The notes beneath the pieces were generated by a model that saw only the letters and a list, made by a program, of their open reading frames with translations, ran no database searches and was not told the DNA's origin. Positions 3,301 through 64,000 of a stretch of 64,000 bases of DNA are shown here, piece after piece; position 1 is the stretch's first letter; each line of letters opens with the position of its first letter. Made by a program: the position numbers and the translations under genes. Origin of the DNA: Agapetus fuscipes (lineage: Eukaryota > Arthropoda > Insecta > Trichoptera > Glossosomatidae); assembly GCA_951799405.1 (NCBI GenBank), contig OX637332.1:2423001-2487000 (forward strand). Reading direction: 5' to 3'.

Positions 3301-6300
3301 GGGGACGAGATGGCAATGGTGGTCTCCAACCATTCATATAACAATTACAAAACGAAAGAGTCGATAATAATTGCTGTTTAGCAGTGGCGAAGGGTGCCAT
3401 ACAACTCGATTCCCATCGGTTTCCCTTTTAAAATGATAATAAAGTAGACTGCATGGTTTCAATGGGGGAAAAATATGTATTGTTTCTTTGGTTTTAAATG
3501 TATTTTTTTACTTTGTGCCTATATTTTATGACTACTTTGTTGCCTCATTTGCAGCCTTCATTTTAAAAGGGAAGCCGATGGGAATCGAGTTGTATGGCAC
3601 CCTTCACCACTGCTGTTTTGTGTTCGTACCTGTGACCTGAAGTGTAATTGGAGATCAGGTAATTGCTCTAAGACTAAATTTTCTAACTGGTACATGCACA
3701 GTCCCAGCATCGCCATGCTCGGTTTGAACATGTCGCGCATGCCGTGGTTCTGCATGATCTTCACCAAAACTGCAAAAGTTTCTTCTTCAGGCATCTGAAA
3801 CAAAAAATAAAGTAACTCATCCTTGTTCTTCGCGTAGCTCTTTTTTCTTTAAAAAAAAACATGGGAAGAGAAGTGCAATTCATAAATAAATTTTTACCTG
3901 GCCAGAAATAAGTATTAGATTATCAATTAGTACTTAATTCATCTTTTTTTAAATGAATAAATTCATTAATTCCTTGACTTTTAGGTTGGTATGCGGCTGA
4001 CCACCCATGCTGTAAAAATGGTTCACTTTGCCAATGCCACCCCTGTCTCAGGGAAGGACGGCAAGAGTTGCAGGGTGTATGGCCATTTGAGATTTGGTTT
4101 TTATGTTGTAGGTTCACATGCGACATGTGCAAGCGCGAACTTGTACGTGTCGGGTTGTGAAAATGCATGTAATGTAAATCTCCAATGTAGCATATCTTTG
4201 CAACTTAGATTAGATTAGATTAATTAATGATTACCCAATGACATCTGCTGAAACAGGGTCTAAGTTACTGTCAAAAGGACGCGGCAGGACTTGAACTTAC
4301 GCTTGTTTAAAAAATGCCAATTAGGATACCAATGCCTTACCTGCTCGACCATACTGTCGATAATCTTCAATGAAGATGGACAAAAATCATAGAAATTTAC
4401 ACATTAAATACTCTTGCATGAAAGAAAGATCATATGCATCTACCAAATCACTGTCTTAATATAATAAAATATTAGGATGACTTATTTGTTGAGCGCTGTT
4501 TTTGTGTGTATCACACCTCAAGAGCCCTCTGTGAGCTTGGTCATTACTGTAGAAAGCGCCAATTCTCAAGCAAGACCCAGTAGCTGTAAGGCTGGATGGA
4601 CTTTTAGTGAACGGTCTTTGGTAAAGGCTTTATGAATTTTTCCACCCAGCGAAGAGCACATTTGGAAATATAAATGGTATATTTTTGTGCTCCGCCGGGA
4701 TCCGAATCCACAACCTTCCATTTACGAGTCCGAAGTGTTGCTACAGGACTACGGACCGGTCCAAGATGCCAACGACACGCAGTTTACCTGAGCGGTAACA
4801 CATCCAAGTAGCATCCGCGCCCAATGTTGCTTAACTTCGGTAATCTGATGAGAACCAGTGCTTTCAACGTGGTATCATCGTTGACATTTGCCAGAAATAA
4901 GCTTATTGATGATATTCAAAGAGTTCTACAGGAATACATTCAAATAATTCATTGTAACAAAAAAACTTACATGCTTAATCAACTCCAGAAACAAAAGTTT
5001 TATATCCTCCATTTTATAAAAGTTAAGTGCATAAATAAAATTAAAAAAAAAAATGTAAATCAGTTATACATATTTTTTTTAATTCTTATTTATATGCTCA
5101 TTCACGCCTTATATGTATGCAGGTAGCTTTATCAAATGATAAAACATGAAAGAGAGTTGGCAAGATATGAAGTTTTGAGTTTAACATTATTTCTTATCTT
5201 ATCAAATAAAAGTAATCAATTAAGAAAAACGATTAGTTGCTTTTGTAAATATATTGTGAAAACCCACAATTCTTCAATTCATAAAAATAAATTCTAAATA
5301 TTACTGTTTTTAAAGAAAACATGCACTATCTATTTATATAAAAAGAGAGTGTATGTTTGGTGAGACTCCTACTTGAGGTGGGAGTTTCCAAGCTCCCGAG
5401 TGGGCTGGTACTCATTTCTTATGAAGGCTGATTTGAAATTAGCACCGAAACAGGAAATCATTTTTGAGACCCCCGGTGGGATTCAAACCAGAGCTCTCGG
5501 CATGGAATGCGAGCACTCTACCAACTGAGCTATCGAGTGGACTTACAATGAAAATTATATTATTATTTAGATTTTTTTATGGTTTGTGTATTAGCACTGT
5601 GAAAATTCATGTTGATTGATTTGTTTTTAAAAAAACACTATTTTTTATTTAAACACTGTTTTATTTTCACACACAATACATTTTAATTACAATATAATTT
5701 AAATGTAGGTATTGTGTGTGAAAATAAAACAGTGTTTTTATAAAAAATAGTGTTTTTTTAAAAACAAATCAATACAATGAAAATCTTTGTACTCTTTAAT
5801 CTTTACAATAATAGTGAAAATAAAACAGTGGTTCAAATAAAGAAAAATTGTTTCCCTTATCTTTTGAAATATTTTGTTTATAAAATTAACCCTTTAACTG
5901 TGGGTGCACACATAGGCGTCAAGTGTAAGCTTGCATACAGTGCGGCTGTCAATCATAGATGTCATCTTATTTATTATACTTTGAACTTATCCCTGACATC
6001 TGTGTTCAACGATTCAAAAGTCTGCCAGTGAAATGTGCTACACCTTTGTGATTTTTGTTCTCGAATAACTAATACATGTGACTGCGCACATAGTTTGTTC
6101 ACAAATGTTCTCAATCAATTAAGGTAGGAAACAATGAATACATTAAAATGTGATAGAAAAAGTATTCCCTACTGGGGGTATGTATATAGCCAGAATATTC
6201 AGAAGTGAAAGAAGGTTTAACACACAATTGTTAATGAAAAAAATAGTAATTTTACCTGCATCAGAAGCAGCCCCACGATGAAGCCTGAACCCTGGCAGTA

Positions 6301-22744: not shown

Positions 22745-23398
22745 TATTTGAAATGCATTTTCACAAGCAGACACGTACAAGTTCGCGCTTGCGCTTGCGC
22801 ATGCCGCATGTGAACCTACAATAATAATAATAATATTAGGATGATTTATTTGGTGAGCGCTGTTTTTGTGTGTATCACACCTCAAGAGCCCTCTGCGAGC
22901 TTGGTCGTCGCTGTAGAAAGCGCCAATTCTCAAGCAAGACCCAGTTATTGTAAGGTTGGATGGACCTTTCAGTGACCGGTCTTTGGTAAAGGTTTATGAA
23001 TTTATCAACTCAGCGAAGAGCACATTCGAAATATATATGGTATAATTTTTTGTGCTCCGCCGGGATCCGAATCCACAACCTTCCATTTACGAGTCCGAAG
23101 TGTTGCCACTACGGACTACGGACCGGTCCAAGATGTCAACGACACGCGGTGTACCTGAGCGGTCACCCATCCAAGCACTGTCCGCGCCCAATGTTGCTTA
23201 ACTTCGGTGATCTATGGGAACCGGTGCTTTCAACATGGCTAACGTCGTTGACGTGAACAATATAAGAATCAAATCTCAAATGGACATACACCCTGCAACT
23301 CTTGCCGACCTTCCCTGAAAACAGGGGTGACATTGGTAAAGTAAACCATTTTCTAAAGCATGGGTGGTCAGCCGCATACCAACCTATAAGTCAAGGAA
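22745..23398 (-). repeat. R250 repeat split by a 5S-headed SINE-B
   Basis: Tail-side part at 22,745-22,820 and head-side part at 23,253-23,398. GTGAAC occurs on both sides of the insertion, consistent with a target duplication. Confidence 0.85.
22827..23252 (-). repeat. SINE-B with full-length 5S head, nested in R250
   Basis: On the minus strand 23,252-23,135 is a 118-nt 5S rRNA-like head, then the tRNA-like unit, body, and the GTGATACACACAAAAACAGC tail ending in (TAA)n. Confidence 0.9.
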
Positions 23399-27699: not shown

Positions 27700-28135
27700 T
27701 CGATGTTCACAAAATCACTAATTTGATCAGGGCATTATTTTCTCGTTCTTTCCCTTCCCCTCTTGCATCTTGCATTCACCCTTTTAAAAAGGTAGCTGGC
27801 TATGTAATCTGCAGTGTTATCCTTTATTATATTGCCCTTCGTCGTCGTCATTCGTCGTCGAGTTTCGATTTTCAAAATCAATGCCATCACAGCAGATGAA
27901 ACACATTCATGCTCTATAGCAAATTAATTTTTGTATATATGCTGCAATGCGGCGAGCTTACGCGTGTGTGTTTACAAATGTATGAAATCTTTTAGGAATT
28001 AATCTGTTTGTTCATACTAAAAATGTATGGAACAATATTGACATCTAGCGGCAAAACTTAAAAGTTTTTTTTACATTTTCTTTTATTTCATGCAAATTAA
28101 AAATAAAAAAAAAGCCAAATAAAAATGGATTTCAA
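27700..28135. other. Unassigned sequence
   Basis: A CGTCGTCGTC-like short repeat near 27,840-27,860; otherwise nothing recognised. Confidence 0.4.
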
Positions 28136-28137
28136 TC

Positions 28138-28216
28138 TGTAATCTAAGTTGCAAACATATATAACATTTGAGATTCATATTACATGCATTCTTACGAGCA
28201 GACATGTATAAGTTCT
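28138..28216 (-). repeat. R250 fragment beside the array
   Basis: Tail third of R250, broken off at AAGTTCTAATC where the array begins. Confidence 0.75.
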
Positions 28217-30285
28217 AATCTAATCTAATCTAAGCTGCAAAGATATATATCATTTAAGATTTATATTAAATGCATTCCCACAAGCAGATATGTATAAGTT
28301 CCCGCTGACATATGCTGCATGTGTACTTACAACATAACAGCCCATTCCAAATGAACATAAGCCCTGCAACTCTTGCCAACCTTCCCTGAAACAAAGGTGA
28401 ATTTGCAAAGTAAACCATTTTTTAAAGTATGGGTGGTCAGCCTCATACCAACCTATAAGTCAAGAAAAGTATTTTGTGTATTTCTTTACATAATCTTAGT
28501 TGCAAAGATACATACCATTTAAGATTCATATTAAATGCATTCCCACACGCAGACAGGTACAAGTTCACGCTTACAAATGCCCAATGTGGACTTGCAAAAT
28601 AAAAAAACTAATCTCAAATGAACATAAGCCCTGCAACTTTTGCCGACTTTTCCTCAAACAGAGATAAAATTTGCATGGTAAACCATTGCTTACAGTATGG
28701 GTGGTCAGCCACATACTAACCTTTTAGTCAAGGAAATTATTTTGTTTAGTTCTATAATCTAAGTTGCAAAGATACATACCATTTGAGATTCATATTAAAT
28801 GCATTCCCACAAGCAGACAGGTATAAGTTCGCGCTTACAAATGCCCCATGTGGACTTATAAAATAAAAAACTAATCTCAAATGAACATAAGCCCTGCAAC
28901 TCTTGCCGACTTTTCCTCAAACAGAGATAAAATTTTCATTGTAAACCATTCTTACAGTATGGGTGGTCAGCCACATACTAACCTATAAGTCAAGGAAATT
29001 ATTTTATTAAGTTCTATAATCTAAGTTGCAAAGATACATACCATTTGAGATTCATATTAAATGCATTCCCACAAGCAGACAGGTATAAGTTCGCGCTTAC
29101 AAATGCCCCATGTGGACTTATAAAATAAAAAACTAATCTCAAATGAACATAAGCCCTGCAACTCTTGCCGACTTTTCCTCAAACAGAGATAAAATTTTCA
29201 TTGTAAACCATTCTTACAGTATGGGTGGTCAGCCACATACTAACCTATAAGTCAAGGAAATTATTTTATTAAGTTCTATAATCTAAGTTGCAAAGATACA
29301 TACCATTTGAGATTCATATTAAATGCATTCCCACACGCAGACAGGTACAAGTTCACGCTTACAAATGCCCAATGTGGACTTGCAAAATAAAAAAACTAAT
29401 CTCAAATGAACATAAGCCCTGCAACTTTTGCCGACTTTTCCTCAAACAGAGATAAAATTTGCATGGTAAACCTTTGCTTACAGTATGGGTGGTCAGCCAC
29501 ATACTAACCTTTTAGTCAAGGAAATTATTTTATTTAGTTCTATAATCTAAGTTGCAAAGATACATACCATTTGAGATTCATATTAAATGCATTCCCACAA
29601 GCAGACAGGTACAAGTTCACGCTTACAAATGCCCAATGTGGACTTGCAAAATAAAAAAAAACTAATCTCAAATGAACATAAGCCCTGCAACTCTTGCCGA
29701 CTTTTCCTCAAACAGAGATAAAATTTGCATTGTGAACCATTGCTTACAGTATGGGTGGTCAGCCACATACTAACCTATAAGTCAAGGAAATTATTTTATT
29801 AAGTTCTATAATCTAAGTTGCAAAGATACATACCATTTGAGATTCATATTAAATGCACTCCCACAAGCAGACAGGTATAAGTTCGCGCTTACAAATGCCC
29901 CATGTGGACTTATAAAATAAAAAACTAATCTCAAATGAACATAAGCCCTGCAACTCTTGCCGACTTTTCCTCAAACAGAGATAAAATTTTCATGGTAAAC
30001 CATTCTTACAGTATGGGTGGTCAGCCACATACTAACCTATAAGTCAAGGAAATTATTTTATTAAGTTCTATAATCTAAGTTGCAAAGATACATACCAATC
30101 GAGATTCATATTAAATGCATTCCCACAAGCAGACATTTATAAGTTCGCGCTTACACATAATGCATGTTGACTTACAACATAAAAACCCAATCTCAAATTA
30201 ATATAAGCCCTGCAACTCTTGCCAATCTTCCCTGAAACAAAGCTGAAATCTTCAAAGTGAACCATTTTTTAAACTATGGGTGGTC
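28217..30285 (-). repeat. Tandem array of eight R250-derived units (262-266 bp period)
   Basis: The marker TAAG/TTAG + TTGC recurs at 28,231, 28,496, 28,760, 29,022, 29,284, 29,548, 29,814 and 30,076, giving periods of 265, 264, 262, 262, 264, 266 and 262. Units carry R250 in minus orientation plus a shared spacer (AAATTATTTTATTAAGTTC). The middle units are closer to each other than to dispersed copies, as expected for unequal exchange. The outer units are more diverged. Confidence 0.93.
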
Positions 30286-30299
30286 GATTTTCTTTTACA

Positions 30300-53997: not shown

Positions 53998-54560
53998 GTC
54001 AACGACGATACTATGCTGGAAGCACCGGTTCTCATCAGATCACCGAAGTTAAGCAATGATATTTTTTAGGGTTTGTGTATAAATACTGTGAAAATTAATG
54101 TTTTTAAGTTTGTTATTCAATAAACAACACTTTTAACTTTTAAACACAGTTTTTAATTTCGACCTGATAATGACTGAACAGTCGAAAACGTTAGTAGTAT
54201 AATTTAAAATTCAATAATTTTTTAAATATATTATATTTGTGAAATTAAAAACAATGTTTAAAAGTTAAAAGTGTTGTTTATTGAATAACAAACTAAAGAA
54301 GTTAAGCAACATTGGGCGCGGATGCTACCTGGATGGGTGACCGCTAGGTACACCGCGTGTTGTTGGCATTTCTTAGATCGGTCCGTAGTCCAGTGGTTAC
54401 ACTTCGGACTCGTAAATGGAAGGTTGTGGATTCGAATCCCGGCGGTGCACAAAAAATAAACCACTTACATTTCCAAATGTGCTCTTCGCTGGGTTGAAAA
54501 ATTCATAAACCTTTACCAAAGACCGGTCACTGAAAGGTCCATCCAACCTTAAGAAGTTAC
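53998..54560 (+). repeat. SINE-B with full-length 5S head, split by a hairpin element
   Basis: 5S part 1 is 53,998-54,056 and part 2 is 54,310-54,367 (117 nt together, including GGATGGGTGACCGC), then the tRNA-like unit (54,377-54,452, box A TAGTCCAGTGGT, box B GATTCGAATCC) and body to CATCCAACCTT. Confidence 0.92.
54057..54297 (+). mobile_element. Hairpin element with hammerhead-like core and 12-bp target duplication
   Basis: Flanked by GAAGTTAAGCAA on both sides (54,045-54,056 and 54,298-54,309), so the 241 bp unit is a real insertion. About 50-bp arms (TTTGTTATTCAATAAACAAC... and complement) pair. Between them lies CTGATAA (54,164-54,170), a GACTG/CAGTC stem, GAAA (54,184-54,187) and AACGTTA. 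That is the order of a hammerhead ribozyme with a minimal stem III, as reported for Penelope-like elements. The canonical CTGATGA has one change (G to A). Confidence 0.75.
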
Positions 54561-60056: not shown

Positions 60057-60676
60057 TTTTATATATATAGCTGTTTTGAATACGTACTTTAGCAAAAATA
60101 ATAATTTGTCTGATTACACTGATTGGTAGGTAGGTACTGTCTTTTAATATTTATTTTTAATTCACCAATATTTTTAACATAATAATGTCTGATAGTACAT
60201 AATTATTTATTTCGTCTCAAGTCTTTCAAACACACAGGTAGGTATTTAATGTACATTCACACACTTGTAAACAAAGGATAGTTATTCAAAAACTTTTTCT
60301 CGATGAATCTGGAACGTTCTTTTGTAATATTTTTCAAGATTTTTATTTATTTATTTTATTTTTTTTTAATCACACACAATAATAAAAAAAACTATGGTCC
60401 AATTTGATGACTTTCTCAATGCGGTAAAATAGTCATTATGTTATGTCCAGAATTATGTCCAGAATTATGTTCCATATGATGTTCCAGAATTTATAAACAA
60501 CTTGCTTTTGCGTCTTTTCTTTTAACAAAAATTTATTTAAACACTTGTTTTCACAAAAGTCAGTTCACACAAAGTTCAATTTGAATAAAGTTCATTTTAA
60601 CACTATTTAATTTATTTTATTTATTTTTAGACAGAAGATCTTAATTTTTCTTGACAATTCCGCACCTGACGCCAAT
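60057..60676 (-). other. Leader-like sequence behind a Gypsy LTR
   Basis: AT-rich, no ORF above about 40 codons. Read on the minus strand it directly follows the LTR end (…CGTAACA) and begins with a primer-binding-site-like TGGCGTCAGGTGCGGAATTG. It is probably the untranslated leader of a second, truncated element copy. Confidence 0.55.
60655..60674 (-). promoter_or_regulatory. Primer-binding-site-like sequence
   Basis: TGGCGTCAGGTGCGGAATTG starts 2 nt after the LTR on the minus strand. It has the TGG start expected of a tRNA 3' end complement. I cannot name the tRNA with certainty. Confidence 0.6.
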
Positions 60677-61192
60677 TGTTACGAAATTAGGGTTCAATTG
60701 TCTTCAAATTAAAAATACACAGGTCTTCTTCAATAGTTATTTATTTTACACAGTTACAAAATTTATTTTCACACTACTTTCTCGATTATTCCACTTGGTT
60801 TTGGTTCACTGATCAGATGACTTCGAAGTGTTTGTAAGTCTCTATGATACTGGCCGCTCTGCAGGCCATTTGCACCCTTTATACTCTTTAGAGCAGTATA
60901 ATCTAGACCTATAGTTGCTAGAAGGTTCCAGAGTAATTATTACTTCTCGATGTTTCACGTACTACCTAGACACAACCAAAATCCTACCTACCAATGCAAT
61001 ACAGTATTCCTATAATTATAACAAATACCTACTTAGCCTAGAGAATTCTACACTTATACATAATTATCGATCTTACCTACCAATACTTTTGAGGATTCTT
61101 ATAACTATAACTATCCATACTTATTTCAATATTTATATTTACATAACACTATAACTACCCATACTTATTTCAATATTTATATTTACATAACA
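60677..61192 (-). repeat. LTR (516 bp) of the TGTTATG Gypsy family
   Basis: The minus strand starts TGTTATGTAAATATAAATA directly after the pol stop and purine tract, and ends CCCTAATTTCGTAACA. The first ~45 bp are duplicated in tandem. Promoter-like AGAGTATAAAGGGTGC near 60,885. Start, end and interior blocks match the three solo LTRs. Confidence 0.92.
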
Positions 61193-64000
61193 CTACCCCC
61201 CACCTAGACTGTTTCGTCCCGGAACAGTCTTGACTCTGTGTAGGTAGGGGCATGCTGATCCACGTCGACACCCTGTGGTCAGGAAGAAGTGGCAGTCCAC
61301 GGATTTCTCCCCACTGGCTCTCGGCTGCGCTTGCTCGCAGCACACCATGACACTGATGCCGACTCCCGAGAACACTGCTTCAATCATACTCCGGATTATC
61401 CGCCAGTCTCGATTAGCGCGGCCGCCACCCATCTTCGGTATTGCCAGACGCGCCTGCTGATCCTCCAACATGTAGTCACGCAGCTCAACAAGGCCGTCCC
61501 ACAATGCCTTGTAGTCCTCTTCCAGGTTGCTGGAATCCGGGACAACCAGGCAGTATGCTTGTTGACGCCCCTTCGGTAGTCTCAGAGCTCTTCCTTGCGG
61601 GCTGCTCGAGGGTTGCGGTTCTCCGAATTTGTATCGGAAGACCCGTGCAATTCCTCTAGACATATCTAGATCTTCCGGTACACTGCATGCCAGTGTGTGG
61701 TCCCTAGTGACCTCAAATAAGTCCTTGTGGACTTCTGTGGTCACTCCATGGCGAAACTTCTGCCCTGCCTTCGCGTTCTCCCAAAACGTCTCAAAGGCTG
61801 GTGATCTTTCGGATGCGACGCACTGTCGTACTTTTTGGGCTGGTTGGTCATCATTATCGCCTAGGTATGGTGAGAGGCGATTGTAGTGCACGACCCTTGG
61901 TTTTCCGTTTGGTCTTTTTTTTATGCGGTAGACCACATCGTTGATGCGCTCCAAGATCTCGTACGGCCCGTCCCAGGAACGCTGAAGTTTCGGACAGTAT
62001 CCTTGGCGCCTCTTGGGGTCAAAAAGCCACACCCAGTCACCAGCTTTGTACCCCATGCTGTCAGCTCTGGTGTCATAGCGCTCCTTCATTTGATCGCTGG
62101 CTTCCCCGATGTTCATGCGGACCTGATCATGGATGTCATCCAGCCTCCTGCGAAGGTCTGTCACATAGTCTTCTCCGGCTAGGTCTTCACCTGGTTTGCA
62201 GCCAAATTTGAGATCACAAGGAAGTCGCATTTCTCGCCCAAACAGTATGCTGCTGGGAGTCTTCTTCGTCGTTTCCTGAACAGCCGACCGGTAAGCCAAT
62301 AAGAACAAAGGCAGATGTCGGTCCCAGTCCCGCTGATGGCTGGACACTACTTTGGCTAAGTACCTCCCCACGGTACGGTTCATCCTTTCCACCATTCCAT
62401 CAGACTGTGGATGTAGCGCAGTGGTCCTGGTCTTGTAGATCCCTAGCCGCTCACACATTTGCTGGAAGATAGCAGCTTCAAAGTTCCTTCCCTGATCAGA
62501 ATGTAATTCCAGGGGTACGCCAAACCTGCTGATAAATTCGGTAACTAGAACTTCAGTCACGGTTACGGCCTCTTGGTTAGGGATTGAGTAAGCTTCCACC
62601 CACTTGCTGAAGTAATCCATCACCACCATGATGTACTTGTTACCCTTCTCAGTTGTAGGAAATGGGCCAGCTATGTCGATGGCAATTCTTTCAAAGGGGC
62701 TGCCAACATTGTACTGACGCATTGGTGCTCGCCTTTTCCTTTGCGGTCCATTGGCCGTTGCACAGGTTACACATTTTCGACACCAATCTTTGACGTCTTC
62801 GCTGCAGTTGATCCAGTAAAATCGCTCTTTCACTTTCTCCAGCGTCTTCTTAACGCCTAGATGTCCTCCAGAAGTTCCTCCATGCAGCAGTCCAAGGATT
62901 TCCGGTACTCGGCTCCTCGGAACGAGGGTTTGCTTTCTTCTAAGTGTGCCGTCTTCCTTCTCGATCTTTCGTTTCAGAAACCCTCCTTCTATCACTATGG
63001 ATCCCCATTGAGCCCAATAAGCCTTGACAGTTGGTGATAAGGGGGCGAGTTTTTCCCAGGTTGGCCTTTCTCCTTCTCGCGCCCATTCCATCACATACTT
63101 CAAGTCCGGATCATTCAGTTGGTCTTGCGCCAATTTTTCATCTTGCCAGTCCTCATCTTCGGTGGTCGTCCTTTGGACAATTGCTACCTTGTCCTCCATC
63201 TTGCTGCAATGTTTGCAGTCACTGGCGCATGGTCGTCTGGATAATGCATCCGCATTTCGATGAAGCGTGCCAGGTCTATGTTCGGAGTCATAATCATACT
63301 CCTGGAGCCTTTCAATCCATCTAGCCACTTGCCCTTCTGGGTTTTTGAATTTCAGAAGCCAAACCAGTGCAGCATGATCAGTCCGTAGTGTGAATTTTCT
63401 CCCGTACAAGTATTTGCGGAAGTGTTCCACTGATTTTATCACGGCAAGAAGCTCTCGTCTGGTCACGCAATAATTTCGTTCTGGCTTGGAAAGCACTTTA
63501 CTGAAGTAACCCAGAACAGTCTCATGCCCATCCTGTATTTGGGAAAGGACGCCTCCTATCCCCACATTACTAGCGTCGGTATCCAGGATGAACTTTCCAT
63601 CTTTTCGTGGGTAGCTCAAGATGGGGGCACTTGTTAATCTTCCCTTAAGCTCTTCAAATGCTTGTGCGCAGGAATCACTCCAATGGAAGCGAGTGTTTTC
63701 TTCCGTAAGCTTGGTGAGCGGTTTTGCAATGTCCGCAAATCTTGGCACAAACCTCCTGTAATAAGTGCACAGCCCCAGGAAACTCCTAGTTTCATGTTTG
63801 TCCTTCAGCACGGGCCAGTCTCTTACTGCCTTGATTTTGGCAGGGTCAACTTCAACTCCACGTTGAGAAACTATGTGTCCCAGGTAATTTACTTGTTTCT
63901 TGAACAGGTTACACTTTTTCGGGTTGAGCTTCAGTCCAGCGTCTTGTAGTCGCCCGAAAACTTGCTCCAGATTTCTCAACTGATGGTTGAAGTCCTTTCC
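61193..64000 (-). CDS. Ty3/Gypsy Pol with C-terminal macro domain and CCCH zinc finger (5' end outside window)
   Basis: The minus-strand frame is open from the right edge to TAG at 61,193-61,195 (936 codons visible). Counting from the Leu at 63,979: reverse transcriptase end 1-120 (LGLCTYYRRFVPRFADIAKP), RNase H about 128-250 (ILDTDASNVGIGG, TRRELLAVI, RTDHAALVWLL, HRNADALSRRP), H2C2 zinc finger about 366-406 (H366, H373, C403, C406), integrase core about 420-580 with D435, D495 and E531 (D-x35-E), GPY/F about 665-707. Residues about 745-880 resemble a macro domain of the TARG1/OARD1 type: HKDLFEV, LACSVPEDLDMSRGIARVF, YKFG, AIPKMGGGRANRDWR, MIEAVF. Residues 896-914 form C-x7-C-x5-C-x3-H. The active-site YxDD, protease and Gag lie beyond 64,000. 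No chromodomain or envelope gene. No stop or frameshift, so possibly recent. By eye the catalytic Lys and Asp of human TARG1 are not conserved; it may bind ADP-ribose rather than hydrolyse it. Confidence 0.93.
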   Translation of the reverse strand, partial: GKDFNHQLRNLEQVFGRLQDAGLKLNPKKCNLFKKQVNYLGHIVSQRGVEVDPAKIKAVRDWPVLKDKHETRSFLGLCTYYRRFVPRFADIAKPLTKLTEENTRFHWSDSCAQAFEELKGRLTSAPILSYPRKDGKFILDTDASNVGIGGVLSQIQDGHETVLGYFSKVLSKPERNYCVTRRELLAVIKSVEHFRKYLYGRKFTLRTDHAALVWLLKFKNPEGQVARWIERLQEYDYDSEHRPGTLHRNADALSRRPCASDCKHCSKMEDKVAIVQRTTTEDEDWQDEKLAQDQLNDPDLKYVMEWAREGERPTWEKLAPLSPTVKAYWAQWGSIVIEGGFLKRKIEKEDGTLRRKQTLVPRSRVPEILGLLHGGTSGGHLGVKKTLEKVKERFYWINCSEDVKDWCRKCVTCATANGPQRKRRAPMRQYNVGSPFERIAIDIAGPFPTTEKGNKYIMVVMDYFSKWVEAYSIPNQEAVTVTEVLVTEFISRFGVPLELHSDQGRNFEAAIFQQMCERLGIYKTRTTALHPQSDGMVERMNRTVGRYLAKVVSSHQRDWDRHLPLFLLAYRSAVQETTKKTPSSILFGREMRLPCDLKFGCKPGEDLAGEDYVTDLRRRLDDIHDQVRMNIGEASDQMKERYDTRADSMGYKAGDWVWLFDPKRRQGYCPKLQRSWDGPYEILERINDVVYRIKKRPNGKPRVVHYNRLSPYLGDNDDQPAQKVRQCVASERSPAFETFWENAKAGQKFRHGVTTEVHKDLFEVTRDHTLACSVPEDLDMSRGIARVFRYKFGEPQPSSSPQGRALRLPKGRQQAYCLVVPDSSNLEEDYKALWDGLVELRDYMLEDQQARLAIPKMGGGRANRDWRIIRSMIEAVFSGVGISVMVCCEQAQPRASGEKSVDCHFFLTTGCRRGSACPYLHRVKTVPGRNSLGGG

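Follow-up and report, generated by a model that had tools for sequence, protein, structure and literature searches.

Why would a Gypsy retrotransposon carry a domain related to the ADP-ribose hydrolase TARG1 behind its integrase? The question is raised by a stretch of 64,000 nucleotides of the Agapetus fuscipes genome (assembly GCA_951799405.1, contig OX637332.1, positions 2,423,001 to 2,487,000), hereafter the window, in which the Pol frame of a Ty3/Gypsy element runs on past its integrase into a TARG1/OARD1-type macrodomain and a CCCH zinc finger. Capture of such a domain with a finger by Gypsy Pol, proposed by a sequence-only reading of the window, is supported lineage-wide by relatives, predicted fold and trees, all of them evidence from sequence. 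To the fuller account, in which one Gypsy clade captured the domain once, fused it with the finger to the integrase C-terminus and uses it as a hydrolase clearing ADP-ribose from the element, we give an even chance.

A macrodomain and a CCCH finger in one open Pol frame

The minus-strand Pol frame comprises 935 codons from the window edge (64000) to a TAG stop (61193-61195) with no interruption. Pfam matches were obtained for RNase H, the integrase zinc-binding domain, the rve core and the p58/GPY-F C-terminal domain, and the end of the reverse transcriptase (RT), truncated by the window edge, matched below the cut-off. The order RT-RNase H-integrase followed by GPY/F, with only the end of the RT visible, places the frame in Ty3/Gypsy; no chromodomain was found after GPY/F among the Pfam matches at E ≤ 1, so the element is not classed as a chromovirus. 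About 30 residues past the end of GPY/F begins a 192-codon tail, consisting of the macrodomain, the CCCH finger, a short C-terminal tail and the stop. Across this extension the two other minus-strand frames have seven stops each, and the three plus-strand frames five to seven.

The tail matched human OARD1/TARG1 at 5.8e-11 over 132 residues (phmmer against PDB sequences). The NCBIfam DarG model matched at 1.1e-5 and 24.9 bits, far under its cut-off of 250, and the Pfam Macro model gave no match to the window copy at E ≤ 1. The predicted fold agrees with TARG1 and is well predicted when the family alignment is used; a single-sequence structure model was discarded as too poor (predicted local distance difference test score 54; TARG1 first at rank 11, E 0.18). 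The domain is nearest to TARG1 in both sequence and fold and, within limited sampling, groups in a tree with OARD1 as against the IMG/VR domains described below, which assigns it to the TARG1/OARD1 subfamily. The zf-CCCH model of Pfam scored 21.8 bits on the tail alone (cut-off 20.5) and 18.1, below the cut-off, in the whole frame.

A catalytic role for Lys84 and Asp125 of TARG1 has been reported (PMC5087735, PMC7050489, the latter printing the second residue as Glu125). Aligned with OARD1, the window copy lacks this pair, with K84 changed to proline and D125 to alanine. The same proline and alanine are present in a near-twin, P0001, 99% identical over 94% of the query; since P0001 is a separate record and differs elsewhere, a sequencing error is unlikely to be behind the missing pair. 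Given that the closest relative, P0002, keeps both residues, the window branch most plausibly lost them secondarily.

Much of the sequence-only reading is thereby confirmed. It had described one uninterrupted frame from integrase and GPY/F through macrodomain and finger to the stop, a purine tract and a long terminal repeat (LTR), as frame, Pfam and sequence bear out. The motif check agrees with its perfect C-x7-C-x5-C-x3-H finger, phmmer (OARD1), NCBIfam (DarG) and the predicted fold with its TARG1/OARD1-like domain, and the OARD1 alignment with its observation, made by eye, that the catalytic Lys and Asp are replaced. The outcome that it held would speak against it, no macro match by profile or fold, did not occur, given the OARD1 match and the agreement in fold.

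Table 1 Coordinates of the features of the element in the window
Feature	Position	Strand	Basis or remark
Pol frame, partial: RT end, RNase H, integrase, GPY/F, macrodomain, CCCH finger, stop	61193..64000	-	
TARG1/OARD1-type macrodomain	61343..61738	-	phmmer/PDB, predicted fold; residues 12-143 of window:61193-61771:-
Codon aligned to TARG1 Lys84, reads Pro	61538..61540	-	counted from OARD1 alignment
Codon aligned to TARG1 Asp125, reads Ala	61415..61417	-	counted from OARD1 alignment
CCCH zinc finger, C-x7-C-x5-C-x3-H	61238..61306	-	Pfam, motif check
Stop TAG and purine tract AGGTGGGGGG (61196-61205), which overlaps the final codons	61193..61205	-	sequence
LTR-like stretch, 516 bp, ends TGTTA...TAACA, directly after stop	60677..61192	-	sequence
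TGGCGTCAGGTGCGGAA, primer-binding-site-like	60658..60674	-	sequence

The extension is carried by one Gypsy clade

A search with the integrase part of the frame gave 1642 matches at E ≤ 1e-20, the best 120 of which were examined. Among these best 120, 26 relatives have macrodomain sequence after GPY/F and P0020 retains a remnant of the tail only (profile match 7.7e-5), while the remaining 93 gave no match to the extension profile at E ≤ 10. The profile was seeded with the window copy and 11 of the 26 macro-bearing relatives; all 15 unseeded ones match it at 4.8e-41 or better. An extension found in this copy only, which would likewise have told against the sequence-only reading, is thus not what was observed: 26 relatives and P0001 share it, in one clade.

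An integrase tree was built of 62 rows: the window, 27 relatives including P0020 and, from the 93 others, the 34 nearest. All macro-bearing rows in it fall in one 30-row branch with support 100/99, together with P0020, P0004 and P0028. The macro label needs three changes on this tree, compared with about 20 in shuffles, a distribution that fits a single gain with two losses. For the macrodomain, a tree of 48 rows was built from 24 Gypsy domains, OARD1 as the sole cellular sequence and 23 macrodomains of IMG/VR contigs, leaving out P0001, P0006, P0019 and P0029 as near-identical or incomplete. The 24 Gypsy domains form one branch (100/98) joined with OARD1 (100/97), apart from IMG/VR. The groupings window with P0002, P0013 with P0022, and P0003 with P0005 are present in both trees, as is that of P0010, P0012, P0014, P0025 and P0027, weakly so in the macrodomain tree. 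Such agreement is what joint transmission of domain and element would produce, and inheritance is largely shared.

The named insect hosts of macro-bearing rows are all beetles, Callosobruchus maculatus (P0019, P0024) and Molorchus minor (P0029). P0010 and P0018 come from records named Erysiphe pulchra, a powdery mildew, and may represent contamination of those records. Several of the wider relatives outside the clade are called 412-like by their sources.

Searches by other routes added little. A protein search with the tail returned only the near-copy P0001 (99%), and a second returned nothing among 513 candidates; both missed relatives known from the integrase search, so a null result from such a search is weak evidence. 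A search of genome contigs gave no relative, and IMG/VR held no match to either the tail or the integrase part. With the family alignment, IMG/VR yielded 28 loci (best segment 32% identity), 26 of which were used as the comparison group of the macrodomain tree, with three dropped as identical; their label as phage is provisional. Using tblastn, the tail matched 24 plasmid and 296 phage records, with best identities of 28.4% and 30.3%, respectively, among the 20 matches listed for each, and several of the matches listed are annotated as macro domain or phosphatase.

Catalytic residues, finger and constraint across the clade

Residues and fingers were counted over 28 rows, namely the window copy, P0001 and the 26 macro-bearing relatives. 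In the OARD1 alignment, 23 of the 27 rows with a residue at the Lys84 site have the lysine, and 22 of 26 have the aspartate of Asp125; both are kept in 21 of the 26 rows covering both sites, and the pair can be counted as a feature of the lineage. All 28 rows, those without the catalytic residues included, preserve the residues that align with Asp20 and Gly43. A C-x7/8-C-x5-C-x3-H finger is present in 17 of 28 rows (the window and 16 of 27 others), and the Pfam zf-CCCH model matched 14 of the 22 members labelled A1 at E ≤ 0.1. The last 150 residues of the 94 rows without a macrodomain contain no CCCH motif.

The tails that follow the finger position are of the types FRD..LRRGQC, VPGRNSLGGG and VLGQNSLKEG, the last of which occurs in finger-less rows; that of the window copy is coded over the purine tract. 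In P0018 the frame continues for about 350 residues past the finger. Its end, C-x2-C-x4-H, resembles the beginning of a zinc knuckle, as though Pol were continued in frame by a Gag.

The median pairwise identity among the 24 other members is 51% for the macrodomain and 71% for the integrase. Even at 51% identity, most members retain the open frame, the pattern of the alignment and the catalytic residues, and this conservation at the protein level, by which alone constraint is judged here, argues for selection on the domain. The window copy itself changes 11 of 36 conserved macrodomain columns, 10 of 200 in the integrase and 1 of 8 in the finger region; similar macrodomain counts were obtained for P0022 (13/39), P0029 (12/41), P0009 (10/40) and P0013 (9/39). 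Its macrodomain tip branch is the second longest, after that of P0009, at 0.89 on the fixed tree and 1.35 on the 48-row tree. Tajima counts of window to P0002 with four outgroups were 24:9, 22:12, 23:15 and 24:13 for the macrodomain, with chi-square above 3.84 for the first only, and 27:18, 33:25, 30:30 and 24:25 for the integrase, with none above 3.84. For the window copy, a relaxation of constraint is likely rather than established. The idea that loss of the pair speeds change of the whole domain was dropped as not significant: the ratio of macrodomain to integrase tip branches on the fixed tree had a median of 3.66 in four members without the full pair and 2.71 in 20 with it (p = 0.15).

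A proposed role, weighed against its alternatives

TARG1 is an eraser of ADP-ribose on acidic side chains and on the ends of nucleic acids (PMC7050489, PMC8053099). Human, fly and bacterial TARG1-like macrodomains take ADP-ribose off RNA uracil, and TARG1 also acts on DNA thymine (PMC13036486). We put at about one half the chance that an integrase-linked domain of this type, beside a finger of an RNA-binding type, is well placed to clean the RNA, cDNA or integration complex of its element. We propose that an OARD1/TARG1-type macrodomain and a CCCH finger were joined in a single capture to the integrase C-terminus of one Gypsy clade, and that in most members the domain would be an ADP-ribosyl hydrolase tethered to the integrase, with the finger supplying RNA contact. 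It would strip ADP-ribose from the RNA, cDNA or integration complex of the element, and host ADP-ribosyl transferases would thereby be kept from stalling reverse transcription or integration. Both catalytic residues are missing from the window copy and P0001, best seen as a derived branch that keeps finger and open frame; ADP-ribose binding without TARG1-type catalysis, or slow decay, is most likely there.

Several observations weigh against this proposal. Losses within the clade indicate that neither the finger nor the catalytic pair is indispensable: the finger is absent in 11 of 28 rows (at least three of which, P0006, P0019 and P0024, end early), and five of the 26 rows covering both sites do not have the full pair. 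At the positions of Lys84 and Asp125 the window and P0001 read Pro and Ala, P0009 reads Arg and Asp, P0013 Lys and Asn, and P0022 Arg and Asn. Two rows inside the clade are without the whole extension. SCO6735 is a hydrolase without both TARG1 residues (PMC5087735), so their loss in the window copy is no proof of lost activity. The trees also conflict in places: P0009 and P0021, sisters in the integrase tree (96/97), are separate in the macrodomain tree, where P0009 has a long branch; the macrodomain of P0024 groups with those of P0003 and P0005 (98/78), but its integrase does not; and P0017 groups with P0026 in the macrodomain tree only. Such conflicts could stem from the shortness of the alignments, from long branches or from exchange between elements. 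Finally, the reach of the lineage rests on the best 120 of 1642 matches, and the tail searches missed relatives.

The main rival for the lineage is a reader rather than an eraser, in which the domain would tether the integrase to ADP-ribosylated chromatin or DNA-damage sites and so steer integration. The ALC1-like class includes both readers and erasers (PMC7050489), the residues aligned to D20 and G43 persist even where the catalytic ones are lost, and the domain occupies the position of the chromodomain, which by analogy suggests a steering role. The catalytic pair, however, would not be needed for reading and is kept in most rows, and we consider the reader unlikely, at roughly one chance in four. 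Because the pair is so widely kept, hydrolysis is the better guess for the function of the family; the preference of the sequence-only reading for reading or binding over hydrolysis fits the window copy, in which the pair is lost, but not the lineage. For the window copy, binding without TARG1-type catalysis competes with decay, in which the macrodomain of this copy and its near-twin would be a passenger with no present role. Decay would agree with the excess of changed macrodomain columns over the integrase, the long tip branch, and Tajima counts that lean to the window with all four outgroups, less so in the integrase. Yet the frame is open in both copies, the finger is kept with a single conserved column changed, the fold is still well predicted with the family alignment, and the tip-branch ratio shows no clear difference across lineages. 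We regard decay as a serious possibility, of about one in three. That the extension is chance read-through or an assembly artefact might be suspected from its rarity and from the failure of the Pfam Macro model, but macrodomain sequence in frame after GPY/F in 26 further relatives and P0001, forming one clade with members well diverged in both macrodomain and integrase, makes this extremely improbable.

A broader form of the hydrolase proposal is more doubtful, though we would rank it slightly above the reader: the lineage may carry its own nucleic-acid de-ADP-ribosylase, guided by the CCCH finger and held by the integrase, in answer to hosts that would keep retroelements in check by ADP-ribosylating RNA, cDNA or integration complex, which together with the algal elements bearing a NADAR domain would make a recurrent arms race. 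If true, this arms race between ADP-ribosylation and LTR retrotransposons, the algal elements included, would be an undescribed one. The roles of RNA and DNA ADP-ribosylation in animal cells are largely open (PMC8053099, PMC13036486), and a TARG1-type pair mostly kept beside the integrase at about 51% median identity would suggest that ADP-ribose is of consequence at some step in the replication of retroelements. Within the lineage the pair, the finger and the whole domain are each present in some members and missing from others, which provides natural variants of all three kinds. In Drosophila without PARP-1, eight mobile elements changed significantly, five up and three down, and the rise may be indirect according to the authors (PMC7712786).

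Element ends and the rest of the window

The LTR features present are one LTR-like stretch, the purine tract and the primer-binding-site-like motif. No second LTR copy was found in the part of the window searched, and the element extends at its 5' side beyond the window edge. At its start (61104-61191) the LTR holds two tandem 44-bp copies that are 98% alike. Two bases beyond the LTR, on the side away from Pol, stands TGGCGTCAGGTGCGGAA, which we take to be primer-binding-site-like from its appearance. Because this motif adjoins the LTR, it suggests a second, partial internal region or element in tandem, sharing the LTR with the Pol copy. The window contains no further copy of the same Pol at E ≤ 0.01, and the Pol proteins of eight relatives had no other match in it at E ≤ 0.001. 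Eight further open reading frames of the window gave no Pfam match at E ≤ 0.01, and no tRNA genes were found in it.

Elsewhere, three matches to the 5S rRNA family lie at 4767-4885 (-), 23134-23252 (-) and 53998-54109 (+), the first two of which adjoin a repeated tail with a tRNA-B-box-like motif; matches and tail are perhaps a 5S-derived short interspersed nuclear element. A repeat array with a spacing of about 262 bp occupies 28129-30295 and is related to scattered copies elsewhere in the window.

Relation to known systems

No report of a TARG1 or macro-CCCH Gypsy element was found among the titles and abstract starts of the papers listed from an open-licence library, with repeat libraries and most subscription journals outside this scope. 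The parts considered of PMC9503650, PMC5348765, PMC6431247 and PMC7998251 describe no Gypsy macrodomain; the word "macro" does not occur in PMC6431247, PMC7998251 or PMC9289625, nor "macro domain" in PMC12477816.

The nearest known domain is TARG1/OARD1 (C6orf130), an ALC1-like macrodomain hydrolase, from which the Gypsy domain differs in being fused to an integrase and often followed by a CCCH finger, and the window copy also in lacking the pair. Closest in theme are the Ectocarpus Gypsy elements with NADAR, such as Gypsy-12_Ec32 (PMC12477816), which likewise have a Pol with a captured ADP-ribose-handling domain. NADAR was described there in one Ectocarpus Gypsy lineage and in oyster Tx1 long interspersed nuclear elements, with blastp matches almost exclusively bacterial; since it belongs to a different family, the captures would be independent, and Pfam found no NADAR in the visible part of our Pol, whose N-terminus lies outside the window. 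Orchid Gypsy elements with an AlkB N6-methyladenosine demethylase (PMC9289625) also captured an eraser of a nucleic-acid modification, but as an additional open reading frame, for methyl rather than ADP-ribose, and with activity demonstrated in vitro. Chromoviruses, with GPY/F and a chromodomain, similarly bear an extra domain at the integrase C-terminus, which in their case is a chromatin reader, and the viral MacroD-type macrodomains (alphavirus nsP3 and others) are also counted among the closest known systems. Gypsy elements have further captured a second RNase H (PMC5348765), and an ostracod element has a 250-residue coiled-coil extension past GPY/F (PMC7998251). Domain capture by Gypsy elements is thus already known, and the capture of a TARG1-type domain with a CCCH finger would extend it.
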